DNA of 24,166 nucleotides from a virus, in IMG/VR virus record IMGVR_UViG_3300043219_000219, positions 1 to 24,166 of that record, one strand, 5' to 3'. Position numbers and translations under genes: made by a program. How positions within the stretch are numbered: the stretch's first letter is position 1; the number at the start of each line of letters is the position of its first letter. The notes beneath the pieces were generated by a model. It searched no databases. It was not told the DNA's origin and was given only the letters and a program-made list of their open reading frames with translations. Below are positions 3,082 through 23,318 of the stretch, piece by piece.

Positions 3082-3420
3082 TTAGTACGTACTCCTATCG
3101 AACTCCCCCGGAATAACATATAGTTTCGCGGCGGATATAGATTCCTCGGACATGGTGCGGGCTTTCTGCAAGGATTCCCGCTCCCCCAACTTATTTACAT
3201 ATCGATCTTTCAGATCATAATATGCTTCGTCGTAAGGTCCTTCTTTTTTCTGATCAAGACGCACACGTATAGCCTTCATATCAGAGTTTAATCGGTCAAT
3301 GCCTTTGTTGGCCGCTTCTATAACCTGTTCTTGTTCTCGAACAATTACCATTGATTTCATGTCCAGTTTTTCCCGGACTTTATCGAGTTGGTCAGCACTC
3401 TTCTCTGATTGATTAAGCAC
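3082..3420 (-). CDS. Small coiled-coil protein, virion region
   Basis: A 112-residue, highly charged and helical protein with long heptad-like runs (KSADQLDKVREKLD, VIEAANKGIDRLNSDM). It is probably a coiled coil for most of its length, with no catalytic motif. The start is taken as GTG at 3420 because a perfect AGGAGG lies six bases upstream. An ATG at 3438 in the same frame would add six residues but has no good ribosome site. The start overlaps the end of the giant polyvalent gene by a few bases, and the stop is one base from the next gene's ATG, so the three are likely co-translated. It could be a scaffold-like or structural accessory protein. Function unknown. Confidence 0.65.
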   Translation of the reverse strand: MLNQSEKSADQLDKVREKLDMKSMVIVREQEQVIEAANKGIDRLNSDMKAIRVRLDQKKEGPYDEAYYDLKDRYVNKLGERESLQKARTMSEESISAAKLYVIPGEFDRSTY

Positions 3421-6400: not shown

Positions 6401-8764
6401 TTTCTCAAGAAGATACCATTGTCCAGTGGTTTTACTCTTAACCATACTACCGTCCGGGATAGATTTCCGTACTCCAAACCTGTCTACCAGATTTGTGATT
6501 CTTTGTTCCATAATTCGCCTCAGTTTCGGGTCTTCAATACCCGCCAAAATAACACCTTTCTTAGCTAATACGTTTGTCAGTTGATCTTGAATATCAACAT
6601 CTGTTACGAGACCGAACACCGAGGAAGCCGAGCGAGAGGGATCACGTAGACTCTCTACCTCCGTAACGTCGCTGTTAAATGCGGCACCTTTTGGTTTCCC
6701 CTGTGCGCGGTATCTCAATGATCCACCATTATCTATTCGCCATATCTTTGAACCATCCCATATCACATTATCATTATCCATACCGAGTACATCCCAGTTA
6801 CTTACCAACGCATCGGCTACAAATCCATCTCGAATCTGGTCTCTTGCTTCAGCCTGTTCATCGCCATGAAGTTCTGATAATGGAACACCCTCAATAAAAT
6901 CGGCAACCTGTACAAGCTTCCCTTCTTTATCATGAGAGAGCTGAACATCAGGCACATTGATACCTAATATTTTATAGATTCTATTTGCTGTATATTCATC
7001 CTTAAGATGGCCTTCACTTGTGGATCGCTTCAAAACTTTTTCTTCACCGTTGACGAATCTAACTTTAATTGCTCCGCCAGTGGTCCCGCCCAGATTCTTA
7101 AGGCTGGCATATGATCCCATACTTTTCGGGCGTTTGCTCCCATTCTGGGGATAGATATAATTCCAGCGACCATTCTTAAAATACTTTTTAACATATTTTT
7201 TACCTACTGCTTTCTGTAGATTGGAAGACATAGATTCTTTGACTTCATCAGATCCAAATAAGTACATAGCATATTTCAATGAAAGTTTTGTGAAAGCCTC
7301 GTTTGTATTATTGGAAGATTTACTCTTCTGAATCAAAGAAACATTCAATTTCATAAAATTGATATTAGGCCGTCCGTGAGTTTCATAATCCCAATTATCA
7401 GGAGCATACTGATCATCCCATTTAATAGATTCAGTTATTTCAAAGCCATACTTAGAATATATCTTCGGCAGAACATCACCGAAACAATCCAATTTCTTTG
7501 CACCATTTTTAATCGATGTCTTCATAATTAAAGAACCTTCACGGGCACCCGGTTCAGAGAAAACAGAGATAAGATCTCCATCCCCTGTAATAACAAAACC
7601 GCTCTTACCGGTAGCGGATACAAATGTCTTAGCTCCTTTCTTTTCATAATCTTCTGCACTATACGCTGTAACAAAGGCTTCAAACTCTTTGGGAGTCTTC
7701 GCGTTTCTGATAGGTATAAACTCAGCCAGTGGAACAGAAGAATAATCCACGACCGGCGGTGCTGCTTTCTTCGCTGTGAACTCAGCTATAGGTTTCTTTT
7801 TAATCTGTTTAGGGTCACGGATATCAACCCATTTACCTTCCGAGACTTTTCTACGACCACGGGAAACTGTACCAATCGGCATACGTTTAGCTTTCTGCAT
7901 ATTTGCTTTATCCCATAATTCGGTTATATATTTTCTATCTGTAAAATCAAGTTGAGTTCCAAATAAAACGCTAATATACTTAGCACCCTTTTGTTTTAGA
8001 TTAAAATACCTATGATTACCATCTTCAATATTTATATTTCCTTTATAATCAACACTCACCCTTATCGGTTCATTGGGATTTCTAGGTTTATGTTTACCTA
8101 TCGTAGTTTCTTTAGTATGCCCTTTTGTAGGCTGTATTTCAGATATTAAGAGTCGCATTGGTTTTCTATTATTCATAAAATCAGAAGCACTAGTGTATGC
8201 TTTCGCTTCTTCGTTAATAGAATGTCCTTTTAAAGAATGCTTAAAATCAGTATACGTATATACTGGCTTCCCATTAACTATTTTTTTAGAGATATACTTA
8301 TGACTTAAAGCTTTTTTCAGCTTCATACCACGCTTTTCCTTCAGCATGATTTTAAAAGTCGCCATGTCCACAATGGTCATGTCCTGATAAAACTTAGGAT
8401 TATCGTACTGATTGATATACGCGGTTTTCGCTTCAACAGCGCTGTTAAATCCTAAAAGAACCTTATCTTCATCATAAGCGCCTGTCTCCGGGACCTGTTG
8501 ATGAATGATGAATACTTTATCACTGAACTTATTATTTCCCAGATACACATCGACATGATCACCATCTGTACCTTCTGTAGCCCGCACGTAGCCGTATTGG
8601 AAATGCATGAAATTCCGCCATGGTATCCCGGTTAACGGATTCATACCCTGACGATAACTACCTCTCTCATTTTCTATAGAGATAGGAAGACCCTGAAACT
8701 TACATTTTCCTTGTAGTTTATGACTGCGCCAGTCGACTGCATTAGTGATTATACCGCGTTTCAC
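3413..8764 (-). CDS. Giant multi-domain phage polyvalent protein (InPase-, ParB-, GNAT-, kinase-like domains plus SF2 helicase)
   Basis: A 1783-residue protein starting with GTG. Domains in order: an InPase-like polyvalent domain (about 15-140; TEGTDGDHVDVYLG at 63-76); a ParB/sulfiredoxin-like fold (about 195-285; EDGNHR 247-252); a possible GNAT-like domain (about 345-475; KLDCFG, LPKIYSKYGF); a HipA/lipid-kinase-like domain (about 553-790; LGGTTGGAIKV, SNWDVLGMDND, IWRIDNGGS near 680); a RWVTIRGARVLL segment (about 820); a long helical region (about 860-1270); and a C-terminal SNF2/SF2 helicase (about 1320-1740). The helicase has a Walker A variant EAGIGKTG near 1345, DEIHE near 1443, MSGT, and motif VI QRNARVFRKGQ near 1716. 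Basic linkers separate the domains (150-172, 290-315, 517-540). Such proteins are known from phages and conjugative elements and are thought to enter the host with the DNA. Individual activities are inferred; the acetyltransferase call is the weakest. Confidence 0.85.
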   Translation of the reverse strand: MKRGIITNAVDWRSHKLQGKCKFQGLPISIENERGSYRQGMNPLTGIPWRNFMHFQYGYVRATEGTDGDHVDVYLGNNKFSDKVFIIHQQVPETGAYDEDKVLLGFNSAVEAKTAYINQYDNPKFYQDMTIVDMATFKIMLKEKRGMKLKKALSHKYISKKIVNGKPVYTYTDFKHSLKGHSINEEAKAYTSASDFMNNRKPMRLLISEIQPTKGHTKETTIGKHKPRNPNEPIRVSVDYKGNINIEDGNHRYFNLKQKGAKYISVLFGTQLDFTDRKYITELWDKANMQKAKRMPIGTVSRGRRKVSEGKWVDIRDPKQIKKKPIAEFTAKKAAPPVVDYSSVPLAEFIPIRNAKTPKEFEAFVTAYSAEDYEKKGAKTFVSATGKSGFVITGDGDLISVFSEPGAREGSLIMKTSIKNGAKKLDCFGDVLPKIYSKYGFEITESIKWDDQYAPDNWDYETHGRPNINFMKLNVSLIQKSKSSNNTNEAFTKLSLKYAMYLFGSDEVKESMSSNLQKAVGKKYVKKYFKNGRWNYIYPQNGSKRPKSMGSYASLKNLGGTTGGAIKVRFVNGEEKVLKRSTSEGHLKDEYTANRIYKILGINVPDVQLSHDKEGKLVQVADFIEGVPLSELHGDEQAEARDQIRDGFVADALVSNWDVLGMDNDNVIWDGSKIWRIDNGGSLRYRAQGKPKGAAFNSDVTEVESLRDPSRSASSVFGLVTDVDIQDQLTNVLAKKGVILAGIEDPKLRRIMEQRITNLVDRFGVRKSIPDGSMVKSKTTGQWYLLEKGKPIKFYWLGELRKSNGNGKKYYSADEVKARGMRWVTIRGARVLLQGLAGGGYVVVGGAGGKLSHLKIDNILSREDYVAKRKRIESKQKEETQKLTKEEIAEAAQKRKVQYAARKTARVMYTESVTTILGVTPDEIRDNITAAQMKELEDKARSMVEARKATKTMDKKTVEQEVEKQSEKELAKAVIKQIKNVEREALNTLMKDYMPEDPNAAPELKSLLDKDKALEILSARKQFRKAIKAIGAESADTPTDLKVGAVFASVTTSEMDEIQKQVKDQVETAKNIQLYDMLNAQSQAINTHIDQGAISALNGLIGDVYGAGATFTTDTVKELGIEAVARAVTAKIQQDGKGEVVRKALEEYVASERGKVVDRALKETKHRLSNADNLRELARDKDDAEAILSMASANGHALKQITAAQRALGTAVGSLRAAAHMINALEDPIADVVQVDMGKDLARARERAKSAGLAKGTYSIRTVKRGRGKRLVMEIPKESLNSFFQGAAEYSATRDKLTDIKAHKANTGYKPPGIKANIKFDAAQEAGLRFFNEKGRVLLDFEAGIGKTGIAYAGIMDAMANKGAKKILVVTPSATRGDFHKQREVFLEPEMQKLVRQSTANTSKTERHRRHLEQDGIHIISQDALRQDASILKEAGYDMVVVDEIHEMTAGSGAAGRYKAMDQLADVPLKMAMSGTNIKTAKKELYRKINFIDPEHGLGSMADFEKRYKGLNQGTGIFQDAANDAFRKELGDWVYTQKNQLPVENKINTLRVPMSTEQRSAYAASERQYREERDNKLPGASARRDSRNYSILSNGFTSENKKVDTIIDTMKKSHPGEKAVIHVSQPGKPVLKAMKTTHERLVKEFGKGSVGTIHGGTSPGELTKIKAAFNDPGNPLRFIIGTKSLESGHNLQAGGSVTFHLDIPESAAAFDQRNARVFRKGQDKDTSTYVLSGVNPMDMRSEDLMATKRKEMNIIGNPRSVTALDDEGFLGMLNKYEEEARSA

Positions 8765-10133: not shown

Positions 10134-10275
10134 TATTATTATCCTCCGCCGGATCAAATCCAAGTATCTGTATAACGGCTTTCGGGGTTGATTCTAACTT
10201 ATCATTATCAGAATCAGTATCAGATATCCATTTAATCTCATCGGCTGTACCAATATACACATCAGGGTCTTTCAA
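10126..10275 (-). CDS. 49-residue acidic small protein, TTG start
   Basis: The gap between the topoisomerase IB gene and the DUF5661-like gene is filled by an open frame of 49 codons. It starts with TTG at 10275-10273, preceded by GGAGG seven bases upstream, and ends TAA at 10128-10126 inside the next gene's first codons (ATGAGTAA overlap). The product (MKDPDVYIGT...) is acidic, Asp-rich in the middle and ends AEDNNNE. Overlaps of 14 bp and 8 bp with its neighbours fit the style of this operon. A GTG five codons downstream is an alternative start. No family was recognised. Confidence 0.5.
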   Translation of the reverse strand: MKDPDVYIGTADEIKWISDTDSDNDKLESTPKAVIQILGFDPAEDNNNE

Positions 10276-11152
10276 TCTTCCGCCTCCACTTCTCAAAAAT
10301 AGCAGGGTTTACATAACTACCCAGAGCTACTGCCCTTGTATTACCCAGTTGATGTGCTACAGCGTCCCCAACTGCCTTAACCCGCTTTTTATATTCAGCC
10401 ATAGTTGCTGGGGTTTTTCCCCTCATGGCTTTCATAGCCACTTCCGTTCCAAGATGTGTTCGGAAATCTTTACTTTGAAATCCGGCATTATTATCTAATC
10501 TATGGGTATATCTTAAAAGACCATCTCCGGTAACTCCGAATAACCGCCTATTTTTTCCAGCTTTACTCTTTCGCTTCAATAACATCTTAGCTACATCCGC
10601 ATCCTTTACAGGAATCTCAAGATCAACTCCTTTTTTTCCGATGAACTTGAGGGATACACCTGACTCGGTTCGCATCACGTGTCTGCCTTCCAGCGTTGTG
10701 GCTCCGAATGCGTCCACGCTGCCTCTGGTATTCTTTTCGCTTCCCGGTCTTATCCCCGTACTCATTATCAGCCATAACACCGTAGCGGCCTCGTTTTTTC
10801 CCTTTACGTCGGCTGCCACTTCCCTGCTGATTTCCTCGAACACCTTGTTCAGGGATTTGATCCTCGCAAACTTCTCTTTGCTCGCAGCGTCTACATGTGC
10901 CGGATTGTAAATGTATTGCACACGCCCTTTCGCGTCTTCGCCTTTCACCCACAGCTTCGATTTCGGATCGTTGAAGTACTGAAGATTCTTCCATGCAGGC
11001 GGAACTTTGAACTTGTTCTGTATACGAGCCGGTAGTTCTCTCCGATGCTTCACCGGTACCCACCTGCCCTCTGCTACTTTCACGTACTTTCCGCTCTTGC
11101 TCTTCGCACCTATAGCTACGCGTTTCGCTTTGGTAAAAATAACCAGTACCAT
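10262..11152 (-). CDS. Type IB DNA topoisomerase (poxvirus/bacterial type)
   Basis: A 296-residue enzyme that relaxes supercoiled DNA by nicking one strand through a 3'-phosphotyrosine. All active-site positions line up with the poxvirus enzyme: Arg135 in TGIRPGSE, Lys173/174 in IGKKGV, Arg231 in SKDFRTHLGT, Asn271 in LGNT (where bacterial members replace the poxvirus His), and the nucleophile Tyr280 in SYVNP. The N-terminal DNA-binding part is present (PPAWKNLQYF, DAKGRVQYIYNP). The length matches the compact family. The first 34 residues are extra and basic (KAKRVAIG...AEGRWVPV) and resemble a linker inside the giant polyvalent protein. The gene lies directly after the portal gene, an unusual place for a topoisomerase. 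This suggests packaging in the head, but that is inference. Confidence 0.93.
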   Translation of the reverse strand: MVLVIFTKAKRVAIGAKSKSGKYVKVAEGRWVPVKHRRELPARIQNKFKVPPAWKNLQYFNDPKSKLWVKGEDAKGRVQYIYNPAHVDAASKEKFARIKSLNKVFEEISREVAADVKGKNEAATVLWLIMSTGIRPGSEKNTRGSVDAFGATTLEGRHVMRTESGVSLKFIGKKGVDLEIPVKDADVAKMLLKRKSKAGKNRRLFGVTGDGLLRYTHRLDNNAGFQSKDFRTHLGTEVAMKAMRGKTPATMAEYKKRVKAVGDAVAHQLGNTRAVALGSYVNPAIFEKWRRKIERP

Positions 11153-11155
11153 TTA

Positions 11156-12727
11156 TCATTCCACCACTATCCGCAACGTTCGCTCTTTTGATTTAGTCAA
11201 AGAACGTAACTCTTTTAAAGACTTTTCAGCCCTAACTTCATCTTTTTCCGTTCTAGTAGAATTGACCTCTTTTTCACCCGCATCTTCCTCATCGGCATTT
11301 GATGATTCAGAATACTGGCCCTCTCCGAGATCACCATAATCACCCATACCCTGTTCTTGCATAGCTGCTTGTTGTTCCTGAGCTTTACCTGCGAGGAATA
11401 TCTGTACAGCCTGAGCATTCATAGGCATCTTTGACCAGTCTTCATTATACGGTTCATCCCCATCTTCAACACGAACTTCATCAATAGACCGCCATCCCAT
11501 AATTTGTTTATTACGGACTTCAGCTTTCTTCTGTTCATCCTCACGCTCAAGACCAACAAACTTAAATCTATATTTTTTGGTTACTTTTCTAATAACTTTA
11601 TTAACATGCTGTTCAGCAAATCCCAGCATGGAAGCAAGTCCCCTATCTTTAGAAGACTGAATTCTCGGTTCCGCATTCTCACTTATAATTGATGTACTAT
11701 CGTCTGTTTTAATTCCCAGCTCGGCAAGATCCATTGAGAAAACAGCACCAACAAGAGAGGATATAAACATCATTGTCTTATGATATTCCATATCTTTATT
11801 GTTTGATGATAAGTTTTTGAAATCGATCCCCACACCATCTTTACCACTCGGGAGAATTGGAATATTAAATTGAGCACCTGCACCTGTCATAGCTGCATAC
11901 CAATAATTTCTAATACTATCGAGCTGAGGTTTTGCCACATCACCCATAACTGATATAAAACCTTTCGGCACACGATCCTTGATCAACTGATCTCTGATAT
12001 AATTGTAACCGAATAAAAGTGTGGTTATGATATTGATACACATTTCAACAGGACTGTATCCATAACCTCTATATTTAACGTCAGATCTTTTAAATTTATA
12101 ATCAAATATAAGATTTTCACTCTTATACTCTTCATAAATCTTATCATCAATTTTCTGAACAAATCGAATATCCTTACCCCACCGCTTTTCATCAGTAACA
12201 CGTGATATAGTTGCGCCGTCTAATGCCCAGAATGCCACCGGCTCGCCCATTCTATTGTATTGAATCTCCGTAGCAATCTGATCAATTTCATAAGTGTCCC
12301 TAACAAGCATGGATATATAATCCATAAAGTCATCCTCACGTTCCCCGTCAAATACAAAACCGGTCTGTTCTATGAAATTAGTTAATTGGATTATTTCACT
12401 TTCATTTTCCTTTTCACCCCTGAACTCTTCTGTCCGATTTTCAATCTCAAAACGAAAACCACGGTCATTCTGTTCCGTGGCATATTTTAAAAAGGGGAGA
12501 ATCTGATCCTGTCGAGTATTGATAATCCCATTGATTAACGGCAACTGACCAACAGAGCGTCTGAGTGTTTCAAAATTAAGCTGAAGAATACGTTCACGTA
12601 CTCCCTGCGCCCCGCCCCATAACCAATTTTGGACTCTTGGATCTACGAGCTGACTAGTTAATTTTTTAATCGTGGCATCTTCATTAAAGCTGACTGCTGT
12701 GTTATTATTTTTCTTTCTTCTTGCCAT
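11156..12727 (-). CDS. Phage portal protein
   Basis: 523 residues from ATG at 12727 (MARRKKNN). A GTG at 12745 is in frame, but it would lie only a few bases from the predicted transcript start and has no ribosome site; GAGGT lies about eleven bases before the ATG. The portal is the dodecameric ring at one head vertex through which DNA is packaged and ejected. Visible support includes the N-terminal pattern of a portal, YRGYGYSPVEMCINIITTLL (about residues 220-240 from this start), the following DRVPKGFISVMGD, and an acidic low-complexity C-terminus (EGQYSESSNADEEDAGEKE), as many portals have. It is the first gene after an extended -10 promoter and leads the virion operon. No terminase gene precedes it here, so that must lie elsewhere. 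Confidence 0.85.
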   Translation of the reverse strand: MARRKKNNNTAVSFNEDATIKKLTSQLVDPRVQNWLWGGAQGVRERILQLNFETLRRSVGQLPLINGIINTRQDQILPFLKYATEQNDRGFRFEIENRTEEFRGEKENESEIIQLTNFIEQTGFVFDGEREDDFMDYISMLVRDTYEIDQIATEIQYNRMGEPVAFWALDGATISRVTDEKRWGKDIRFVQKIDDKIYEEYKSENLIFDYKFKRSDVKYRGYGYSPVEMCINIITTLLFGYNYIRDQLIKDRVPKGFISVMGDVAKPQLDSIRNYWYAAMTGAGAQFNIPILPSGKDGVGIDFKNLSSNNKDMEYHKTMMFISSLVGAVFSMDLAELGIKTDDSTSIISENAEPRIQSSKDRGLASMLGFAEQHVNKVIRKVTKKYRFKFVGLEREDEQKKAEVRNKQIMGWRSIDEVRVEDGDEPYNEDWSKMPMNAQAVQIFLAGKAQEQQAAMQEQGMGDYGDLGEGQYSESSNADEEDAGEKEVNSTRTEKDEVRAEKSLKELRSLTKSKERTLRIVVE

Positions 12728-12755
12728 GGATATCTGGTACCTCACTATTAAGTTG

Positions 12756-12790
12756 ATTATACCACGCTATAGTGGAATGAAGAAAGAGCC
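12756..12790 (-). promoter_or_regulatory. Extended -10 promoter of virion operon, with overlapping dyad
   Basis: On the minus strand TGGTATAAT gives a perfect extended -10 (TATAAT at 12761-12756), with transcription expected to start near 12749, about 20 bases before the portal ATG. The -35 region is weak (TTCTTC-like). Between them lies the dyad CCAC-TATAGC-GTGG (12762-12775), which overlaps the promoter and could bind a regulator. It lies just downstream of a strong terminator, so it would start a separate transcription unit. The regulator is unknown. Confidence 0.6.
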
Positions 12791-12827
12791 AAAAAAAAGG
12801 AAACACGCGGTATTCATGCTCCCTTTT
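12791..12827 (-). terminator. Rho-independent terminator ending the GLW block
   Basis: The minus-strand RNA can form a 13-bp stem, AAAAGGGAGCAUG with CGUGUUUCCUUUU (arms 12815-12827 and 12795-12807, three G-U pairs, 7-base loop), followed by a run of eight U in total. It separates the small-gene block from the virion promoter just downstream. Confidence 0.8.
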
Positions 12828-13042: not shown

Positions 13043-13312
13043 TCATTTATTCTTAAAATCACGTATCCGTATTTGTCCTTTAAAAATATATACATCATAC
13101 TTACTTGTTTGCAAAATCTCTCTAACAAATAATATTGGTTTATCTTTCGGTAGTATAGGTTTAAGCATTTTAACTTGATTACAATCACCCTTTAATACCT
13201 GACCGTACGAACTATAAACATTTATCTTCGAAGGATACGCAGTATGCCATGCACTATCAAACAACCTGATTAAAACTCCATTATCATCCGCCCATAATCC
13301 ATCAAGTATCAT
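13043..13312 (-). CDS. GLW-family small protein (paralogue G)
   Basis: An 89-residue protein of the unrecognised family that recurs in this window. It has the family pattern in order: GLWADD (residues 5-10), LIRLFD, a central QVLKGD, then LKPILPKDKP followed by a beta-like stretch (FVREI...VYIFKG). It belongs with E and F in the group that has RL[FY]D and lacks the long C-terminal tail. The ATG overlaps the end of paralogue F by 11 bp, so the two are probably co-translated. It is the last gene before the terminator at 12827. The alternating hydrophobic pattern suggests a small beta-sandwich or barrel. Nothing indicates an enzyme. Function unknown. Confidence 0.65.
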   Translation of the reverse strand: MILDGLWADDNGVLIRLFDSAWHTAYPSKINVYSSYGQVLKGDCNQVKMLKPILPKDKPILFVREILQTSKYDVYIFKGQIRIRDFKNK

Positions 13313-13628
13313 TAAACATAATCCCCTCTATAATAACTGAATCCTCAGATAACAATTCTAAATGTATAATTGTTAAAGAAGATCTATTCTTCTTTGGAAA
13401 TACAGGATCAAGCATACTTGAATAATTGGCATTTCCCTTTAAAAGTACACCTTTAACTTTAAATCTAAGTCTACCCCGCCAAAGCTGATTATTGAATCCC
13501 CTGTAATTACTAAAAGTAGCATCGAATAATCTAACTAAAAATTGATTTTCAGTATCTTTCCATAAACCATCAAGACTCTTACTTGCATCATAAATGATTG
13601 TGCATTTGATATCCTGTATATTTGTCAT
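13302..13628 (-). CDS. GLW-family small protein (paralogue F)
   Basis: A 108-residue member of the same family, with about 18 extra residues ahead of the LDGLWKD motif. It then shows FLVRLFDATF, a basic strand-like region, VLLKGNANYSSML, DPVFPKKN and a final hydrophobic stretch. At DNA level the start of the core (GATGGTTTATGG) is nearly the same as in paralogues D, E and G. The ATG at 13628 has only a weak ribosome site but lies six bases after the previous stop. Its end overlaps the ATG of paralogue G. The N-terminal extension is either real or a sign that the true start is a non-standard codon further in; I saw no better one. Confidence 0.6.
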   Translation of the reverse strand: MTNIQDIKCTIIYDASKSLDGLWKDTENQFLVRLFDATFSNYRGFNNQLWRGRLRFKVKGVLLKGNANYSSMLDPVFPKKNRSSLTIIHLELLSEDSVIIEGIMFNDT

Positions 13629-13634
13629 AAATGA

Positions 13635-13895
13635 TCACTCGGGTGAACATTTGAGCTTTATTAAAACAGCACAATCAGGATCACCGGGGCACTTCTCAGG
13701 ATTATTTCCTGAACAGCCGATCAGATTACATATATCTTTAAGTGATTTCTTATCCTTTCTTAATACAGTACCACACCATGGACATATTCTGAAGACCGGC
13801 GCAGTATACGGATACCCGTGTAATTTTGCAATCTCCTGAGCTGCTGATATCTGCTCTATACTCAGTTTCCATTCTTCACAATCACATATCAGCAT
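13635..13895 (-). CDS. Small Cys-rich zinc-binding-like protein
   Basis: 86 residues with CDC near the N-terminus (4-6), a CPWCG knuckle in the middle, and several later cysteines (IGCSGN, EKCPGD, PDCAVL, KLKCSPE). The knuckle and spacing suggest one or two structural metal sites. A helical stretch (SIEQISAAQEIAKLHG) lies between the first cysteines and the knuckle. AAGGAG lies eight bases before the ATG, and the stop of the previous gene overlaps it by one base. It lies between GLW paralogues E and F. It may bind nucleic acid or protein, but no specific family was recognised. Confidence 0.6.
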   Translation of the reverse strand: MLICDCEEWKLSIEQISAAQEIAKLHGYPYTAPVFRICPWCGTVLRKDKKSLKDICNLIGCSGNNPEKCPGDPDCAVLIKLKCSPE

Positions 13896-14182
13896 CAGAC
13901 AATCTCCTTAACTGTAACGTATTCACTTAATTTGATCATTTTAAAAATCTCTCTTGACATACCAACACTATACCCGCACTCTTCACAGAAATGATCTCGC
14001 TCATCGTCATTAAGTTTTTTAAAGAATGAAATATTGTTCAAAACAAATAACTGGAAATGAATCATTGTGGTATTATCTCGTCTCGCAGTCCGGCGTATAT
14101 GTTTTAATTCCTCAACCATAGGCTGTACATCAGCATCAGGTATATCATAATGGAATCCTGTAAAGCTTCTAAATCCACTCAT
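13895..14182 (-). CDS. Small phage protein, unknown function
   Basis: 95 residues from ATG at 14182 (MSGFRSFTGFHYD). An excellent AAGGAGG lies six bases upstream, which decides the start over an in-frame ATG at 14221 inside the previous gene. The middle and C-terminal parts look helical (VQPMVEELKHIRR; REIFKMIKLSEYV). One CEEC pair at about 75-78 could form half a metal site or a redox pair. It sits between paralogue E and the Cys-rich protein. No family was recognised. Confidence 0.6.
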   Translation of the reverse strand: MSGFRSFTGFHYDIPDADVQPMVEELKHIRRTARRDNTTMIHFQLFVLNNISFFKKLNDDERDHFCEECGYSVGMSREIFKMIKLSEYVTVKEIV

Positions 14183-14192
14183 GATTGCCTCC

Positions 14193-14534
14193 TTATATTC
14201 TTTTAAAATTACCCGTATCATTTAAGTCTAAATCAAACAAATAACGACTCGTAATTGAATATCCTGTAAAAATATATATGTTAGATACCTTTGTAGATGA
14301 TAACCGCTTAATATATAAATTCGGTCTATTCTTTGGCATAATTGGTTTAATTGTAGTAAATTGTGCCCAAAGTGAATATGCACTAAACTCAATTAAGTTT
14401 AATATATCACCATATGCACTGAAATTAAACATATCAGTATTCATACTAGTAATAAAGGAATGCTCACCGAATGTGCAATCATACAATCTAACCAAACCGC
14501 CCTTGTCACTACCCCACAAACCATCAATCGTCAT
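14193..14534 (-). CDS. GLW-family small protein (paralogue E)
   Basis: A 113-residue member of the repeated small-protein family: IDGLWGSD at the N-terminus, GLVRLYDCTF, a longer middle than other members, then IKPIMPKNRP and LYIKRL followed by a beta-like tail. It groups with F and G by the RL[FY]D and K-P-[IL]-[ML]-P-K-[ND] elements. Its ATG overlaps the stop of the radical-SAM gene by 4 bp (ATGA), so the two are translated together. This coupling raises the possibility of functional linkage, for example a peptide substrate next to a modifying enzyme, but no leader-peptide feature is visible. Function unknown. Confidence 0.65.
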   Translation of the reverse strand: MTIDGLWGSDKGGLVRLYDCTFGEHSFITSMNTDMFNFSAYGDILNLIEFSAYSLWAQFTTIKPIMPKNRPNLYIKRLSSTKVSNIYIFTGYSITSRYLFDLDLNDTGNFKRI

Positions 14535-15043
14535 AACGTCCTGAAATCCTCACCCACCGGCAGCGGACAATTCTTAAGCCAGTGAATCTCTTTTTTATCC
14601 CAGTTACACACGGGAACATAATCCATATCAAAATGATCAAACTTATTCAACCTTAATGACAACGGCTTTTTCCTGTATTGGGTCTCTATGGCAATCAGTC
14701 TATCGAGTCTTTGAAACTCATGAATATGCTGCGGCTCATGTATCGTAAATGTGATACCTGATAATTTGTAATCACAGATCAAAGATGACCAGTTAGACAT
14801 ATCCCTGATAGTACAAGCTGAACTATAAATAAATACATTGACTTTCATCTCAGTAAAGAAAGCAGTCAATGCTTTTACAGTCATAATTTCCATCATCGGT
14901 TCACCGCCTGTCAGATACACTTCCCTATATTTAAAGGCAGTCCTGAAATCAAACTTCTGGACATCGGGAAAATCTTTATTACAGCATCCCGAACAATTTC
15001 TCTGACATATATCGGTTATCTTTAATCGTAATCTATCGTTCAT
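14531..15043 (-). CDS. Short radical-SAM protein
   Basis: About 170 residues. The N-terminal CQRNCSGC (Cys14, 18, 21, counting from the first of two adjacent ATGs) is the CX3CX2C motif that holds the 4Fe-4S cluster of radical S-adenosylmethionine enzymes. It is followed by YLTGGEPM (residues 44-51), the glycine-rich SAM-binding motif. The rest is short for the superfamily and resembles activase-like members or those that pair with a partner. Two further cysteines in VCNWD and NCPLP near the C-terminus could support an extra cluster or metal. The start is taken at the second ATG (15043), five bases after AAGGAG; the first, at 15046, is too close to the ribosome site. No ribonucleotide reductase partner is visible. 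The substrate is unknown. Confidence 0.85.
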   Translation of the reverse strand: MNDRLRLKITDICQRNCSGCCNKDFPDVQKFDFRTAFKYREVYLTGGEPMMEIMTVKALTAFFTEMKVNVFIYSSACTIRDMSNWSSLICDYKLSGITFTIHEPQHIHEFQRLDRLIAIETQYRKKPLSLRLNKFDHFDMDYVPVCNWDKKEIHWLKNCPLPVGEDFRTL

Positions 15044-15324
15044 CATGACTCCTTGAACTTAGTCAGTCTATTTATTATATGAGTTACTGCTTTATCTATA
15101 GCGTCGGGTAATTGATCTTTAATTGCTTTACGTACTTTCAAAGATTGTGATATTTCAATCTGCATAAGCTTTTCAATTCGTCCCACGGTAACATAGCTTA
15201 ATAAAGTATCATGAACCAAGCCTGTGATATCCTCTTTTACTATCTGACTAATCTGTTCGTGAATCATCTCTCTAATTTCATCCCGTAGCTCTTTATCCTG
15301 TTTAATATCTATCGTCAGATTCAT
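15043..15324 (-). CDS. Helical small protein, unknown function
   Basis: A 93-residue, strongly helical protein with heptad-like hydrophobic spacing (IREMIHEQISQIVKED; AIDKAVTHIINRLTKF). No Cys or catalytic motif was seen. It lies directly before the radical-SAM gene, whose ribosome site AAGGAG is formed by its last Lys-Glu codons, so the two are coupled. It could be an oligomerising or nucleic-acid-binding accessory. Function unknown. Confidence 0.6.
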   Translation of the reverse strand: MNLTIDIKQDKELRDEIREMIHEQISQIVKEDITGLVHDTLLSYVTVGRIEKLMQIEISQSLKVRKAIKDQLPDAIDKAVTHIINRLTKFKES

Positions 15325-15367
15325 TATACCCTCTTATTGTATAAGTATCGTAATAACTTGAATAACC

Positions 15368-15868
15368 TTACTTAGTATCTATGATCTGTTTAGTGAGTTT
15401 TTCCTGAAGACTAATAAAGTTTTTGATATTTCGTTTATCGGTTAAATACCATGATTTATCTGATTTCCGAATCATCTTTATATATAGTTTTAATCTCTGA
15501 TTTACTTTTTTCAAAGCGGCTAATTCACTCTTAGACCATTCGTCAATATTATTTACTTCTATTTTTACATTAGTTTTATAATGACTGGCATTATTAAAAT
15601 TTCCTATAGGTTCCCGCCAATTTTTAAGATTTACAGCATTGTAATGTTTAATTCGCTTGTCTTTTGACCATGATTTATCCCAATAGGATTTTTTTGTAAT
15701 TGTAACTTTAGTTAAAACTAATTTTTTAGATTGCATAAGACATTTTTTATAATTGATACAATCATTACCATGTTCATCTTTACAGTTTAAATTATCGTTA
15801 CAATAATCCTTATCCGATCTATCCTTCCAATCGTATCTATATAAAATATCAGCCTTTTTAACTATCAT
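15368..15868 (-). CDS. Basic protein with Cys cluster, unknown function
   Basis: 166 residues from ATG at 15868 (MIVKKADILYRYDW). GTGAGGT lies five to six bases upstream and the previous stop is seven bases away. The longer frame to 15931 would start inside the preceding gene. The N-terminal quarter contains four cysteines within about 21 residues (YCNDNLNC, DCINYKKC), likely a metal-binding knot. The rest is Lys/Asn/Trp-rich (KKSYWDKSWSKDKR) and then helical. Amino-acid use is more Lys/Asn-rich than in neighbouring genes, suggesting a separate origin. No family was recognised. It may bind nucleic acid. Confidence 0.55.
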   Translation of the reverse strand: MIVKKADILYRYDWKDRSDKDYCNDNLNCKDEHGNDCINYKKCLMQSKKLVLTKVTITKKSYWDKSWSKDKRIKHYNAVNLKNWREPIGNFNNASHYKTNVKIEVNNIDEWSKSELAALKKVNQRLKLYIKMIRKSDKSWYLTDKRNIKNFISLQEKLTKQIIDTK

Positions 15869-15875
15869 TAGTACC

Positions 15876-16772
15876 TCACAAATTATCAGCAATGTTCTGA
15901 AGTGTCTGTTTCGAAGCAGCTTCCAAATCAACAGCTTTATCCCACAGCGCGTGATCTACATGAGCTTCCACTGCGTCATCAACCACTTGCTCAAGCACTG
16001 AAGGCTGCAAGGCATCTAGTTCCCATGAAGCATCTCCGTACTGATCGGCATAAACTTCAAATCTTGAGTCAGTCTGTTTAGCGGGATTCTCCGGGGGATT
16101 GTATAATTTGATCTGAGGCATATTAAGAGCTATACGATCCACTACAATCGGAATATCCTCTTCAGCCTCTTCCCGGTATCCAAGGAACAAGTTCATCCTG
16201 TCTTCAACATCTCGTGTCATATCCATCCCAGACGGATCGTGGTCTCCCAAATAAATCAGATGTAAATACTTCCCTTCGAAATGTGCTGCCTCAAATCTCT
16301 TCCCGGCTTCGTACAATGCACTCTGACTTGAATATCCACGATTAGCCATAAAGATTACATCCCACTTCGAACAGACCGGCTGAATGATATTTGATACGGC
16401 GTCTTTTTCACACCACACCTCAACATATTCATTTTGATACTTCCAGCGACTTTCATAATATCCATTGACTGCTGCATCAAGAATATGTTTCGGATTTCTC
16501 CAATGAGTATTCTCTTTAGGATTTCTCACCCTGTCCTCAATCATATTCCAGTCAATGAATCCGGCCAACCTGCCCTTATTCACAACATTCCCGATCTTCT
16601 TATATTCCCTTTGATTATTCGGGATATGATCTCCCGCTACCAACTGATAATACAATTGTCTCAATGTCAGTTTATATCCTTGACTTCTATAATCCTCAAG
16701 GATATCATTTATGATATCAATCAATTCCATAGATCTAGCAGACGGTCGCCATGGTGTAAACTCTTCTTTCAT
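15876..16772 (-). CDS. Stand-alone Spo11/TopoVI-A-like protein with Toprim domain
   Basis: A 298-residue protein with two parts. The N-terminal winged-helix-like part contains LTLRQLYYQLV (Tyr41/Tyr42), which matches the R..YY context of the catalytic tyrosine in Spo11 and TopoVI-A. The second part is a Toprim fold with Glu122 in VEVWCEKDA and the Asp pair in LGDHDPSGMD (Asp177, Asp179), which bind Mg2+. A SWELDAL segment follows (250-255). This matches the stand-alone A-subunit-like proteins reported in mobile elements (Mini-A type), which lack a TopoVI-B ATPase; none is seen here. It may cut or nick DNA, but activity is unproven. The ATG overlaps the stop of GLW paralogue D by 4 bp (ATGA), so the gene belongs to the GLW operon. 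Confidence 0.8.
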   Translation of the reverse strand: MKEEFTPWRPSARSMELIDIINDILEDYRSQGYKLTLRQLYYQLVAGDHIPNNQREYKKIGNVVNKGRLAGFIDWNMIEDRVRNPKENTHWRNPKHILDAAVNGYYESRWKYQNEYVEVWCEKDAVSNIIQPVCSKWDVIFMANRGYSSQSALYEAGKRFEAAHFEGKYLHLIYLGDHDPSGMDMTRDVEDRMNLFLGYREEAEEDIPIVVDRIALNMPQIKLYNPPENPAKQTDSRFEVYADQYGDASWELDALQPSVLEQVVDDAVEAHVDHALWDKAVDLEAASKQTLQNIADNL

Positions 16773-17170
16773 ATTAACCCCTTCATAAAACGTTCCTTAT
16801 ATTTCACTTGAGCAGCTTTAATTTCTTCTATAGTAACACCAGAAGGTCTATACATCTCAAGTTGTTGATCAGACATACCTATTGACGCTGGAATAGACAT
16901 ACCTGCATAAAAGGGTGGATTATATTGATACGCTATCTTGGGAATAATAAGCACATCAGCTACAGATGTAAGTGGAGTAACCGACGACTCATTTTGTAAT
17001 TGAATAATAAACGTCTGCTTAGGTATTACAGAATATAACTTTATCCCGCTAAGACAGCCTGTAAAATTGCCTTTAAGTATTTTAATAGAACAACTGAGGT
17101 TTGCTGTTCCGCGATTATGCAGTCTAAATAACATCGTACTATCGTTATCCCGCCATAAACCATCTAACAT
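16769..17170 (-). CDS. GLW-family small protein (paralogue D) with YRPSGVT tail
   Basis: 133 residues. The core is typical of the first GLW group: LDGLWRDND, MLFRLHNRG, IKILKGN, IKLYSVIPKQTFIIQLQ, then SVADVLIIPK. A tail of about 50 residues follows, containing GMSDQQLEMYRPSGVT and a charged helix. The same tail occurs in paralogue B (GMSDKELDRYRPAGVT), showing exchange or common descent of this module. AGAGGG lies upstream of the ATG. The gene ends in a 4-bp overlap with the Spo11-like gene. No signal peptide or enzyme motif was seen. Function unknown. Confidence 0.7.
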   Translation of the reverse strand: MLDGLWRDNDSTMLFRLHNRGTANLSCSIKILKGNFTGCLSGIKLYSVIPKQTFIIQLQNESSVTPLTSVADVLIIPKIAYQYNPPFYAGMSIPASIGMSDQQLEMYRPSGVTIEEIKAAQVKYKERFMKGLI

Positions 17171-17189
17171 ATTATCCCTCTACTTACAA

Positions 17190-17609
17190 TTATCGTACAG
17201 CATCCACACTTCTAACCCCATTCCATATCAGAAGACGTGGCGGTGTACTTATATAATGAATATTCGCATACTCGGCTATTAACTCTTTTCGTTTTATAGC
17301 GTTCCACGCATGATAACGTAAGCCGATAGCTTCCTTGTTATACCGGTTTACGTAAAGCTTAACGGCATCGGGTACTATCAATTCAGCATCTGGATAACAA
17401 CCTACATGTATTTTTTCTGAGATCCAACCCATATACGTCGTCCTAACATAATAATCGCCTTTCTGAACTTGAAAATATAACTTGGTACCTATGACCGGTC
17501 GTTTAAATATTATACTATTACAGCTCCTAATCTCAACCAGACATGGAGCTGTTAAAAATGATGTTGGAAATATGAGGGATAACAGTCCCTCTCTAGGTTT
17601 TTGGTTCAT
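17190..17609 (-). CDS. Small protein related at its C-terminus to GLW paralogue C
   Basis: 139 residues. It lacks the GLW core, but its C-terminal third (VKLYVNRY...GLRYHAWN) resembles that of paralogue C (VELFKTRR...WYRTWN). This suggests a shared module or a decayed or re-paired family member. The N-terminal part has a beta-like pattern (YFQVQKGDYYVRTTYMGW). It begins inside the end of paralogue C with a 17-bp overlap and only a weak ribosome site. A hairpin (GAGGGA/TCCCTC) lies just after the ATG. It sits within the tandem GLW series and is probably co-transcribed with it. Confidence 0.6.
   Translation of the reverse strand: MNQKPREGLLSLIFPTSFLTAPCLVEIRSCNSIIFKRPVIGTKLYFQVQKGDYYVRTTYMGWISEKIHVGCYPDAELIVPDAVKLYVNRYNKEAIGLRYHAWNAIKRKELIAEYANIHYISTPPRLLIWNGVRSVDAVR
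17574..17591 (-). promoter_or_regulatory. GC-rich hairpin at a gene junction
   Basis: A perfect 6-bp inverted repeat, GAGGGA-CTGTTA-TCCCTC, lies directly after the stop of paralogue C and just inside the next gene. It has no U-run, so it is not a typical terminator. It may slow ribosomes or stabilise RNA. Chance occurrence is possible. Confidence 0.3.
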
Positions 17610-18075
17610 TTATATCCCACGCTTTTATTGGAAATAGAAGATTCCATGTCCTATACCATATACTGCCTCTTGCAGTTCTTCTAGTTTTAAATAACTCAAC
17701 AGACATCGGTTCAGGTACAAGCGGTGTAGGATGTTTAAGGTCCAATAATAATTCGTTAGCTAGATCTTGACGCCAATCCGTATAAGGTATTCCCATGAAA
17801 TTTTTATTAAAATCAGGTATAACAATCGGTGGCAGTAATATAATAACCTTAGCTACTGATGTCTTCTGAGTCAGGGGAAACCATTCCTGTAATTTAATAT
17901 CATAATCCTTTCTCGGCATTACTGAGTATAATTTCAACCCATCAGTATACAGATCAATACTGCCTTTAAGTATCGTAAGATGACTCCTAGTTTCTGACTC
18001 ACTTATCGGCGCAACCTCACGAATCCGAACAAGCAGCGTCTTATCCTCATTGCGCCATAACCCGGCTACTGACAT
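17593..18075 (-). CDS. GLW-family small protein (paralogue C)
   Basis: 160 residues, the longest family member. The core shows VAGLWRNED, LLVRIREV, LTILKGS, LKLYSVMPRKDYDIKLQEW, and TSVAKVIILLPP. A C-terminal extension of about 75 residues contains WYRTWN, a module also seen in the following gene (17190-17609) but not in the other GLW members. Its start lies in the junction ATGTCAGTAG, which also contains the stop of paralogue B. The same ten bases form the A/B junction, so the units probably arose by tandem duplication. Function unknown. Confidence 0.7.
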   Translation of the reverse strand: MSVAGLWRNEDKTLLVRIREVAPISESETRSHLTILKGSIDLYTDGLKLYSVMPRKDYDIKLQEWFPLTQKTSVAKVIILLPPIVIPDFNKNFMGIPYTDWRQDLANELLLDLKHPTPLVPEPMSVELFKTRRTARGSIWYRTWNLLFPIKAWDINEPKT

Positions 18076-18488
18076 TCCATAGCTCCTTTAAACTCTTCCA
18101 TAGCTCCTTTAAACTTTTCCATAGTAACTCCCGCGGGTCTATACCTATCAAGCTCTTTATCAGACATACCAACCATAAGCGCCTGTGTTAACATTGGTGA
18201 ATACCTTGGATTTACGAACTTCGACTCTGGTATTTCAACTACCTGTAATAAGAACTCGCGTCCCATAGACTTAAAAGTTTTTACTGTAATCTTAAAATCC
18301 CTCTTAGGTATTACTGATATTAGTATAGGTATTCGATAGGATATATTAAGATCACGCGAATCACCTTTAAGTACATCAGCATGGCAACCATATACAGGAA
18401 ATAATCCTTTATCATTCAATTGCACACCGGCATGAATCCTGATAAGTAAATCCTCTGTTTCATCGCGCCATAATCCTTCTACTGACAT
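18066..18488 (-). CDS. GLW-family small protein (paralogue B) with YRPAGVT tail
   Basis: 140 residues. The core has VEGLWRDET, LLIRIHAG, ADVLKGDSR, ISVIPKRDFKITVK and a hydrophobic strand ending VVEIP. The tail GMSDKELDRYRPAGVT is shared with paralogue D. Near the C-terminus the heptapeptide KGAMEKF/KGAMEEF is repeated in tandem. This results from a 21-bp direct repeat in the DNA (about 18076-18121), a recent slippage or duplication. Start and stop both lie in identical ATGTCAGTAG overlaps with paralogues A and C. Function unknown. Confidence 0.7.
   Translation of the reverse strand: MSVEGLWRDETEDLLIRIHAGVQLNDKGLFPVYGCHADVLKGDSRDLNISYRIPILISVIPKRDFKITVKTFKSMGREFLLQVVEIPESKFVNPRYSPMLTQALMVGMSDKELDRYRPAGVTMEKFKGAMEEFKGAMECQ
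18076..18121 (-). repeat. 21-bp tandem repeat inside paralogue B
   Basis: On the plus strand CCATAGCTCCTTTAAACTCTT is followed by a second copy differing by one base, then by the first bases of a third. Frame is kept, adding seven residues (KGAMEEF type) to the C-terminal helix. The number of units could vary between isolates. Confidence 0.8.
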
Positions 18489-18778
18489 TGCACACCAGCC
18501 TTATATGCATTAGGATCATAACGCCAATTAACCCAATCATCCACAATAGGAACAATAAGTACTTCAGCTACAGATGAGAATCTACCGACGAGAAACCAAT
18601 TTTGTAATCGGATATTAAAATCCTTCTTAGGCATTACAGGGTATAATTTCAAATTATCAAGATTCGGATGAGCATCTGTACTCTTAAGTATTTTAATAAC
18701 ACAGTTAGATGTAGAACCCATATCCCGCAGCCTGACAAGTATGGTACTCTCTTCATTGCGCCATAAACCGTTCATCAC
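18479..18778 (-). CDS. GLW-family small protein (paralogue A), minimal form
   Basis: 99 residues, close to the bare family core: NGLWRNEEST, ILVRLRDMG, IKILKST, LKLYPVMPKKDFNIRLQNW, SSVAEVLIVP, then a short tail ending VQCQ. It is the first gene of the small-protein operon after the terminator at 18845. It starts with GTG-ATG (18778/18775); GAGGGG lies nine bases before the GTG. Its last codons overlap the next start in ATGTCAGTAG. The core looks beta-rich and small enough for a single-domain binding protein. It has no signal peptide. Function unknown. Confidence 0.7.
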   Translation of the reverse strand: MMNGLWRNEESTILVRLRDMGSTSNCVIKILKSTDAHPNLDNLKLYPVMPKKDFNIRLQNWFLVGRFSSVAEVLIVPIVDDWVNWRYDPNAYKAGVQCQ

Positions 18779-18844: not shown

Positions 18845-18871
18845 AAAGCCCCCATCATCGTAGAGGGCTTT
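18840..18871 (-). terminator. Rho-independent terminator after the secreted-protein gene
   Basis: The minus-strand RNA forms AAAGCCCUC with GGGGGCUUU (arms 18863-18871 and 18845-18853, one G-U pair, 9-base loop), followed by UUUUUAUUUA. It lies 45 bases after the stop of the 101-residue secreted protein and ends the right-hand transcription unit. Confidence 0.85.
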
Positions 18872-18916: not shown

Positions 18917-19222
18917 TCAATGTCTGCCGGATTCAATCCGACTGCCACCTCCTACATAATTTGTATTTGATCGTCGTGAATGATCTACATTATGAGTGCC
19001 ATTCACAGGTACATAAGTATATTTAAATTGGTAAGTTTCTTTCGCACCAACAGCAAGAACAGCGATATTACTATCAAACAATTCTTGCTGTGAAAAAGTT
19101 ACCCCCTGTCTATTTATAGTACCTCTTCTTAGAAAATATGTACCGGCGTCAACCTGTACAGATGCTGCCATTAGCGGAATGGTAAAAACTAAGATCAACA
19201 TCATCATTAAAAATATCTGCAT
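18917..19222 (-). CDS. Small secreted protein with signal peptide
   Basis: 101 residues. The N-terminus MQIFLMMMLILVFTIPLMAAS is a clear signal-peptide-like segment with an AxA/AAS-type cleavage site near residue 20. The mature part is about 80 residues, Gly/Ser/Tyr-rich and partly beta-like (IAVLAVGAKETYQFKYTYV), with a basic, disordered C-terminus (HSRRSNTNYVGGGS). GAAGGGG lies about six bases before the ATG. It follows the lipoprotein gene after a 187-bp gap and is the last gene before the terminator. A cell-surface or periplasmic role, such as superinfection exclusion or envelope modification, is possible. There is no direct evidence for it. Confidence 0.65.
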   Translation of the reverse strand: MQIFLMMMLILVFTIPLMAASVQVDAGTYFLRRGTINRQGVTFSQQELFDSNIAVLAVGAKETYQFKYTYVPVNGTHNVDHSRRSNTNYVGGGSRIESGRH

Positions 19223-19409: not shown

Positions 19410-20033
19410 TCATGCCCCTGTCCCTAGTTGAAGTTTCAGAGACAATTTTATCTGATTTATTATCCGTATGTTTTTAATCCCCCGGTACACTGAGTTCAAC
19501 ATCGGTATCTTTTCTATATTAAATACTTTATCTTTAAATACCGCTTTAAATCTATATAAATATAAAGGCTGTAGGGGAAAATAATACCTTGTGTCGTACA
19601 CGTTATATACTACCTCATTATAGGAAACCATTGCATGATATTTATATCCGTTCGCACCTAAATATACACTGGTATCAATTATTGCTAAATCTAATTCTAC
19701 ATCAAATACCACTTTAGCAATATTCATAAACATTATAGGAAAATCGTTTCTTGTCCCAGATTTATTTTTATATATCGTCTCTGGATCATTGAAATCAGTT
19801 CCCGGTATAATAGTCATATGGGTTAATATCAGCGCTGATATTTCCTGTATATTCGACACCTCAAAATCACCATAATATAAATCAAAACCTAATTGAGGCT
19901 CTGTAAAAATTTCTTCCGGTAGTTTCAATTCATCTACCTCCGCTGTTTGAACAATGTCAACTGTTGCACATCCGACTATTAGAGATGTTACAAGCAGTGT
20001 TAAGAACATTAGCATTAAAATTAACCATTTCAT
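19410..20033 (-). CDS. Predicted phage lipoprotein, function unknown
   Basis: 207 residues from ATG at 20033 (MKWLILMLMF). The start is fixed by a strong GGAGGGGAG three bases upstream; an in-frame ATG at 20072 has no such site. The first 22 residues form a lipoprotein signal peptide ending in the lipobox IVGC, so Cys22 would be lipidated and the protein anchored to a membrane. The mature part has no Cys-rich or enzyme motif that I recognise. It contains many aromatic and acidic residues (PQLGFDLYYGDFEV; YKYHAMVSYNEVVYNVYDTRYYF). Phage lipoproteins often act in superinfection exclusion or lysis, but neither is shown here. The gene start overlaps a possible small gene in another frame. Confidence 0.7.
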   Translation of the reverse strand: MKWLILMLMFLTLLVTSLIVGCATVDIVQTAEVDELKLPEEIFTEPQLGFDLYYGDFEVSNIQEISALILTHMTIIPGTDFNDPETIYKNKSGTRNDFPIMFMNIAKVVFDVELDLAIIDTSVYLGANGYKYHAMVSYNEVVYNVYDTRYYFPLQPLYLYRFKAVFKDKVFNIEKIPMLNSVYRGIKNIRIINQIKLSLKLQLGTGA

Positions 20034-20190
20034 ATTCTCCCCTCCACGGTTTACATTTCTTATAGTATACACCCGTATATTGCTTTACTAATACATCCCA
20101 CCCCGCAATAATATCCAACAATGGTTTTAAGATACCCGACTCTACATCCACGCCACTGTTATACAATTCCGGCTTTCTGATGAGCAACAT
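19957..20190 (-). CDS. Possible small protein overlapping the lipoprotein gene
   Basis: An open frame of 77 codons (start ATG 20190) fills the 126-bp gap between two genes and overlaps the lipoprotein gene out of frame by 77 bp. A GTG twelve codons in would give a sensible start (MDVESGILKPLLDII). The N-terminal half looks protein-like (GILKPLLDIIAGWDVLVKQY). The overlapping C-terminal half does not and may be chance. Ribosome sites for both starts are weak. Either a real short gene or an untranslated gap. Confidence 0.35.
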   Translation of the reverse strand: MLLIRKPELYNSGVDVESGILKPLLDIIAGWDVLVKQYTGVYYKKCKPWRGEYEMVNFNANVLNTACNISNSRMCNS

Positions 20191-22043: not shown

Positions 22044-23318
22044 TCACTCCTTATCTTTAAATAATAAATCTGTATACCGTGCCGGATCACCTTTCGATCC
22101 AAGAAGAGCACTGTTTAAATTACACCCTATAGTATCTGTAAATATTATACCGTCAAAACTATACTCTGGAAATATATATTCAGAATACTCCTTTACAGCA
22201 ACAGCTGGAATATCTCTAAACTCTATTATATGATCAACACGTCCCTTTCGATAAAGAGCAGGGTCAATCTTATCGAGATGATTCGTTGTCAGAAATATTA
22301 TCACATTATGTATATTTTCTATCCCGTCCAACCCGTTTAATAAGCCGGATAAAGTTGTAAAGGTAAAGTCACACTCTTCTATTTTTGATAACGGATGTTT
22401 ATCACCATTAGAATCTTCAGATCTCTCTGTTCTTCTTTTCCTTGCGGCCTTAGTAGAATCAAAATCCTCTATAACCACAAAGGAGTTGGGAGGTGTTTGA
22501 GATAAAGCTCTCTGAAAAGAAGTATCTGAAACAGATCCGATATTCAATATACATAAGTTTTTATCATAATAAGATGCAAGAGTTTTTATAGTGCTGGTCT
22601 TCCCTGTACCGGGTATTCCATGAAGAATATACGTAAGCTTATACGGCAGGCCTTTTGATACAAACCAGTCTTCATTTGAATTAAAATGTTTTATATCATT
22701 CAATAACCGCTGTTTTATTTCGTAATCAAGAGCCAATGACTCAATCGGACGTTTTTTCATAGGTGCATTTTTTCGCCAACTATCGTTGTAATGATATGAG
22801 AATATTTCATTCTTTTTCTCTTTCGGAGCAAACTCTTTTATGAAGCTATCTAATATCGATTTATTTCTACCGAAATACTTTAATAATATTGATCGTTTTT
22901 GAAGCTCTGATCCAGATGATTCAATAGCCGATAAAACCATCCACATAATTTTACCTTTGTATATAAACCAGTGTGTTCCATATCCGGGACCTAATATAAC
23001 GCTTTCTATCTCCCGCTTTAAGTCATCGTCCCACCCCTCATAGGTATAAATAGAAAGAAATCTTGAGAACCTTAAAAATCCTTTATTTTCAGACAACCAC
23101 TGCATACACGAATAATAAATCTTTTGATGGTAATATCCCTGCGCGTTATCAAACTCAAGGGAAGTAATCAACTGAGTTTTTATCTTTGAAAATATTTTTG
23201 CAGGAATAGTTCTTATCAGAAATGTTATTACAGTTAAACCCCATAAAGATATAACCCCGGCAAGTATAGGTGACGTCGATGCAAGTTCCGTTAATCTTAA
23301 ATATATATCCGTTAACAT
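22044..23318 (-). CDS. BCS1-like AAA+ ATPase with N-terminal membrane segment
   Basis: 424 residues, close to the length of mitochondrial BCS1. A hydrophobic segment (about 17-37) anchors the N-terminus. A BCS1_N-like part follows (FLRFSRF; GPGYGTHWFIYKGK, 110-123), then the AAA+ core: Walker A GIPGTGKTS (234-242), Walker B FVVIEDFD (280-287), sensor-1 LTTNHLDKIDPAL (343-355), and the arginine-finger region YRKGRVDH (356-363). BCS1 moves a folded iron-sulfur protein across the inner mitochondrial membrane. Bacterial and phage relatives exist with largely unknown roles, some in conflict-system contexts. Here it may remodel a membrane-associated complex. The ribosome site is GGGGA before the ATG. 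The gene is coupled to thyX downstream, though no shared pathway is obvious. Confidence 0.85.
   Translation of the reverse strand: MLTDIYLRLTELASTSPILAGVISLWGLTVITFLIRTIPAKIFSKIKTQLITSLEFDNAQGYYHQKIYYSCMQWLSENKGFLRFSRFLSIYTYEGWDDDLKREIESVILGPGYGTHWFIYKGKIMWMVLSAIESSGSELQKRSILLKYFGRNKSILDSFIKEFAPKEKKNEIFSYHYNDSWRKNAPMKKRPIESLALDYEIKQRLLNDIKHFNSNEDWFVSKGLPYKLTYILHGIPGTGKTSTIKTLASYYDKNLCILNIGSVSDTSFQRALSQTPPNSFVVIEDFDSTKAARKRRTERSEDSNGDKHPLSKIEECDFTFTTLSGLLNGLDGIENIHNVIIFLTTNHLDKIDPALYRKGRVDHIIEFRDIPAVAVKEYSEYIFPEYSFDGIIFTDTIGCNLNSALLGSKGDPARYTDLLFKDKE

Follow-up and report, generated by a model that had tools for sequence, protein, structure and literature searches.

Why would a phage keep several divergent copies of one small gene within a few kilobases? 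The question is raised by the window, by which we mean the whole stretch of DNA analysed here, the full IMG/VR record IMGVR_UViG_3300043219_000219 (24,166 bases; main genes all on the minus strand), which is probably a genome fragment. A first-pass annotation had reported at least seven genes whose proteins share, in order, GLW with a basic residue and N or D after it, [LI][VIF]R[LI], LKG and a P-P-K element. We found these GLW genes, lettered A to G by rising coordinate (Table 1), as open, tightly packed frames spanning 13043-18778, within about 6 kb, and encoding proteins of 89-160 amino acids (aa); they share a common ancestry and are paralogs.

Seven GLW paralogs and their relatives

Leave-one-out hidden Markov models recovered every copy (A 46.2, B 30.9, C 28.8, D 46.5, E 49.9, F 38.8 and G 53.0 bits), far above both the top score among the 1,500 shuffles of each test (4.9-9.2 bits) and the other open reading frames of the window (at most 5.8 bits); the family is therefore real. 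In the alignment, GLW is present in all seven copies and is followed by a basic residue and N or D in five, the exceptions being GLWAD in A and GLWGS in C; [LI][VIF]R[LI] is again found in all seven, LKG is exact in five (LKS in G, LNL in C), and every copy has [PS]-[VI]-[MILF]-P-[KR] and then a hydrophobic strand. The two subgroups proposed earlier are both visible, as A to C (13.0-14.5 kb) and D to G (16.8-18.8 kb), with strong tree support (97/97) for the three-gene clade only. A profile of A to C finds the other four at 9.3-12.8 bits, above 3,000 shuffles, and the reverse profile misses C alone (5.0 bits); the link across the two groups is weaker but real.

Searches of Pfam, PHROGs, NCBIfam and PADLOC gave no consistent match for any member, nor did the sequences of the PDB, and tblastn of GenBank phages with G, D and A returned chance matches only (E 6-10). 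Isolated library hits (Phage_TAC_9, DNA pol III psi, astrovirus capsid) involved one member each and were taken as chance. The earlier failure to recognise a known family is thus borne out by the profile searches, and our search of the literature on expanded small-protein families in phages found nothing on point.

Relatives were instead sought through neighbouring genes: a Spo11-like query led to 51 phage loci, and a portal query to ten viral loci and two in genomes. The related phage DNA searched came to about 1.2 Mb (loci partly overlapping), and in it GLW proteins occurred only in IMG/VR 3300033155_000965 (L005) with its twin L006, and in IMG/VR 3300036943_000184 (L060), whose portals are 86% (L005 and L006) and 67-69% (L060) identical to that of the window. 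Scored with a profile built solely from the seven copies of the window, the clear L005 and L060 homologs stand above all shuffles; E-values of 3e-23 and 7e-24 were obtained for them with a profile in which these sequences were included. A doubtful second L005 member at 6156-6593 reached 9.6-10.5 bits, above 3,000 shuffles, its support being the N-terminal motif only. Scans of viral contigs gave no relative with the window copies as queries, and when the L005 and L060 copies served as queries, the only matches were these copies and the L006 twin; a scan of genome contigs with a GLW query found none. The single homologs keep the motif order of the window copies (G[LI]W, [LIM].[RN]I, SV[IL]P[KR]). 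Across the nine-sequence set, with the order G[LI]W, [LIM].R[LI], LK[GS], [PS][VI].P[KR], the G, W and P are invariant, while the remaining positions are kept in most. By these searches GLW appears as an orphan protein family, new to the libraries tested and lineage-restricted. Lineage-specific accessory protein families are a known kind in phages; what is unusual here is the seven copies and their mosaic tails.

The first-pass annotation had also suggested comparing copy number between related phages, and the contrast is marked: seven here, against one clear and one doubtful copy in L005 and one in L060. When whole records were searched, those of 53 kb, 80.8 kb and 29.5 kb each showed a single clear copy; the records may be incomplete. 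Seven copies against about one in relatives indicates a lineage-specific expansion, in which close relatives differ in GLW copy number but keep the portal, TopoIB-like and Spo11-like neighbours.

Table 1. Features of the GLW block and of related records (window positions unless L005 or L060 is named; pLDDT, predicted local distance difference test; pTM, predicted template modelling score)
Feature	Position	Strand	Details
GLW copy A	13043..13312	minus	89 aa; final gene of block; AlphaFold pLDDT 92, pTM 0.81, six strands
GLW copy B	13302..13628	minus	108 aa; 11-nt overlap with A
GLW copy C	14193..14534	minus	113 aa
GLW copy D	16769..17170	minus	133 aa; core plus helical C-terminal tail; 4-nt overlap with start of topoisomerase-like gene; AlphaFold pLDDT 79.5, pTM 0.57
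GLW copy E	17593..18075	minus	160 aa; core plus C-terminal extension of its own
GLW copy F	18066..18488	minus	140 aa; core plus D-type tail; 10-nt overlap with E
GLW copy G	18479..18778	minus	99 aa; first gene of block; 10-nt overlap with F
F/E junction	18047..18090	minus	77% identical over 44 nt to G/F junction 18460..18503 (minus)
D tail module (GMSD..L..YRP.GVT.E)	16811..16879	minus	78% DNA identity over 69 nt to F tail module 18102..18170 (minus)
Intrinsic terminator upstream of G	18849..18866	minus	71 nt upstream of G; AAAGCCCUC...GGGGGCUUUUU; -13.2 kcal/mol, z -3.55
Intrinsic terminator between A and portal	12795..12827	minus	13-pair stem; -17.5 kcal/mol, z -3.77
Portal gene	11156-12745	minus	Distant likeness to portals of Staphylococcus and other large phages
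Spo11/TopoVI-A-like protein	15876..16772	minus	phrog_6247, 3e-107; inside block, non-member; neighbour conserved in L005
Short radical-SAM-like protein	14531..15046	minus	phrog_31524, 2e-14; inside block; missing from syntenic L005 segment
139-aa protein	17190..17609	minus	Syntenic anchor, ortholog of L005 9572-9982; non-GLW; C-terminal GVRS..AVR motif common to both; no known family
Clear GLW homolog, L005	11001-11288		Motif order shared; 31.9 bits with seven-copy window profile
Clear GLW homolog, L060	668-1018		Motif order shared; 13.9 bits with seven-copy window profile
Hairpin and T-run before portal, L005	12343-12363		Same place as in window; -20.7 kcal/mol, z -2.66
Terminator-like hairpin before portal, L060	7077-7100		Ten pairs

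Duplication, retention and transcription of the block

Synteny between L005 and the window runs through the 139-aa protein, the Spo11-like protein, a 93-aa protein, a Zn-ribbon-like protein, the portal and the TopoIB-like protein. In L005 the 93-aa homolog and the Zn-ribbon-like gene flank the single clear GLW gene; in the window, G, F and E lie upstream of the 139-aa gene, D between that gene and Spo11, C beside the radical-SAM gene, and B and A after the Zn-ribbon-like gene. DNA repeats of 44-78 nt occur at matching offsets in D to G, including the G/F and F/E gene borders, and show tandem duplication; the resemblance of the F/E junction to the G/F junction indicates that the duplicated unit took in the gene border. 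The tails have a history of their own: the cores of D and F are only 45% identical, against the much closer match of their tail DNA, and the D core resembles those of G and E (38-47% aa identity), so tails have been exchanged or differentially retained. A search for the D/F tail as a widespread phage module gave no match beyond chance in the related loci.

All seven frames are intact, and the rate of nonsynonymous change (dN) is below that of synonymous change (dS) in all 21 copy pairs, which means that the copies have been kept. With dS at least about 0.9 for each pair, and saturated for many, they are old, intact and constrained.

The Spo11-like and radical-SAM proteins that the first-pass annotation placed among the GLW genes do lie inside the block, yet GLW does not need them. 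No Spo11-like gene was detectable in the L060 DNA examined, which has a GLW gene and so argues that GLW is independent of this neighbour; because most phages with a Spo11-like gene show no GLW and L060 shows the reverse, we rejected an obligatory functional tie between the two.

The block is bounded by hairpins resembling intrinsic terminators, and our scan listed no coding-strand terminator within it; it is therefore most likely a separate transcription unit, with G first and A last. In L005 and L060, too, a terminator-like hairpin separates the GLW gene from a homologous portal downstream of it, and the recurrence of this element in the window and both relatives suggests that GLW genes are probably not in the virion operon. 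The total counts of the terminator scans were not far above those of shuffles, so the argument draws on the individual hairpins and their shared position. By eye, TGGTATAAT follows the A/portal terminator just upstream of the portal (12745-12795, minus) and is likely an extended -10 element; comparison with L005 (MARKRKKSN) places the likely portal start at the ATG six codons into the listed frame.

Predicted fold and possible roles

To compare folds we used AlphaFold models of one member from each group, A and D, built from nine-sequence alignments. Both have six strands, at identical alignment columns, and D has an added helical tail; the shared fold that the first-pass annotation expected is thus predicted, although the two models used the same input sequences and their agreement is partly built in. 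The conserved positions of the family are G, L, W, R, P and K plus hydrophobics. There is no conserved Cys, His, Asp or Glu set and no conserved catalytic residue across the aligned proteins, which are therefore likely non-enzymes, pointing to a binding scaffold; no signal peptide or membrane segment was seen by eye in any copy. According to the models, GLW proteins are most likely small soluble six-stranded beta proteins. Foldseek gave no significant match (best E 0.035 in the PDB for D; 0.2 in the PDB and 0.013 in BFVD for A).

That one small gene is present within about 6 kb as seven copies, all intact and divergent, suggests that a repertoire has been selected for. To the reading of GLW proteins as small binding proteins of the cytosol, directed against host functions or defences and diversified by duplication, we give slightly less than an even chance. 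It builds on results obtained here, namely homology, more copies than in the relatives found, a separate block and a predicted shared strand layout. The block would be an accessory operon with early or middle transcription; the fold of a small non-enzymatic scaffold would be held by the conserved positions of GLW, L.RL, LKG and P.P[KR], and the variable loops and C-terminal tails would make the contacts, each copy binding its own component of the host or of its defences, or a variant of a shared component, and blocking or redirecting it. A more specific form is possible but doubtful, namely that the scaffold is a new small beta fold which this lineage multiplied into a repertoire of seven inhibitors, each specific for its target and serving host takeover or anti-defence, with recombining C-terminal tails and one transcription unit. 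If the copies do bind different host or defence proteins, they would offer new inhibitors in compact form and, as natural variants, a record of scaffold diversification.

Several points weigh against this binding-protein reading. Timing, targets and inhibition are steps that we infer; defence-related models gave no GLW match, in libraries that may hold few counter-defence proteins; and many of the structures most like copy A, none of them significantly so, are neck or tail barrels of phages. With dN below dS throughout, the 21 copy pairs gave no signal of positive selection, although synonymous sites are so near saturation that such a signal could be hidden. Of the role in recognition, as decoys or in anti-defence that the first-pass annotation had suggested, the multi-copy, divergent character stands, and the role itself is a proposal.

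The look-alikes of copy A invite another explanation, that the proteins are virion or morphogenesis parts (small neck, tail or capsid-decorating beta-barrels, the copies forming a hetero-oligomer or alternative fittings), which would make an unusual paralog expansion in a virion part. In the PDB they include the lambda portal-vertex chain 8xow_f (probability 0.80, TM-score (template modelling score; TM) 0.49), the tail-associated lysin 9m7n (0.69) and a phage Chi neck chain (0.38), and in BFVD a minor tail protein (probability 1.0, TM 0.56) and head-tail adaptors, and the GLW genes sit just upstream of the portal. GLW proteins are indeed, like neck, head-tail adaptor and tail-hub barrels of the lambda gpFII type, small and all-beta. 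However, the similarity to such barrels (TM up to 0.50 in the PDB and 0.56 in BFVD) does not reach significance, no match having E < 0.01, and copy D gives different, meaningless matches; BFVD is probably rich in tail barrels, so that matches of this kind are to be expected whatever the small beta protein. A head-tail adaptor gene is expected downstream of the portal or capsid gene in the late operon, whereas GLW genes lie upstream, in a separate transcription unit, with a strong terminator in between in three phages; close relatives also differ in copy number, from 1 to 7, with portals that are still 86% identical. We consider a virion role unlikely. Equally unlikely, in our view, are nucleic-acid-binding or replication accessories working with the nearby Spo11/TopoVI-A-like, TopoIB-like and AAA proteins: the isoelectric point exceeds 8.5 in five of the seven copies, the neighbours belong to DNA metabolism and copy D overlaps the start of the topoisomerase-like gene, but the isoelectric point is 7.8 in C and near neutral in F and the L005 copy, no significant nucleic-acid-binding fold was matched, L060 has GLW with no Spo11-like gene in the DNA examined, and dozens of phages bearing a Spo11-like gene have no detectable GLW gene nearby.

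In calycins (lipocalin, avidin), GxW lies in the strand that opens a series of beta-strands. GLW proteins have it in strand 1 as well, a likeness that serves as a lead only towards sponges for ligands or second messengers, with nucleotides bound within a small barrel; their small size would fit, several copies would allow different ligands, and the top PDB match of A is poxin, a cGAMP nuclease (not significant, as its E-value above indicates). Yet calycins are eight- or ten-stranded up-and-down barrels and the GLW models have six strands, there is no sequence or fold match to them, no polar pocket set is conserved, and no described family was matched in sequence in Pfam, PHROGs, NCBIfam or PADLOC, libraries that may or may not contain the sponges Tad1, Tad2, Acb2 and Acb4. 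Acb4 of SPO1 is, like GLW, a soluble phage protein of about 100 aa, but has three strands flanked by helices (PMC11722364), whereas GLW has six, an all-beta core and several copies. Sponges thus seem to us a shade less probable again than the virion and replication roles. Very unlikely is a neutral or selfish expansion by recombination-driven duplication, with no separate functions; the high divergence of the copies and their scattered insertion sites would suit it, but the frames are all intact, dN stays below dS in every pair and the motif set is retained. Useless duplicates are, besides, usually purged from phage genomes.

Neighbouring genes

Other genes of the window include thyX and genes for a TopoIB-like protein, an InPase/helicase polyprotein and a BCS1-like AAA protein. 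The 139-aa gene was tested as an eighth GLW copy and rejected as a non-member. Directly after the portal, at 10262-11152 (minus), lies a TopoIB catalytic core (PF01028, 2.6e-21), so that one fragment encodes both this and a Spo11/TopoVI-A-like protein. The BCS1-like AAA ATPase at 22044-23318 (minus) matches BCS1_N (2e-14), AAA and phrog_7485 (1e-108); BCS1 itself is known chiefly as the translocase of the Rieske protein in mitochondria. The 1783-aa polyprotein at 3413-8764 (minus) has an N-terminal InPase-like domain and a C-terminal SNF2/DEAD helicase part, and is matched by DarB-like and minor-head profiles too. The L005 homolog (about 10897-11001) of the 93-aa protein at 15043-15324 (minus) is reduced to its two ends (LTIDIKQD at the start, NRL.KF at the end), apparently through an internal deletion. 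Upstream of the GLW block, small genes for secreted or lipoprotein-like proteins are seen by eye at 18917-19222 and 19410-20072 (minus), and at the corresponding position in L005 (8693-9264).

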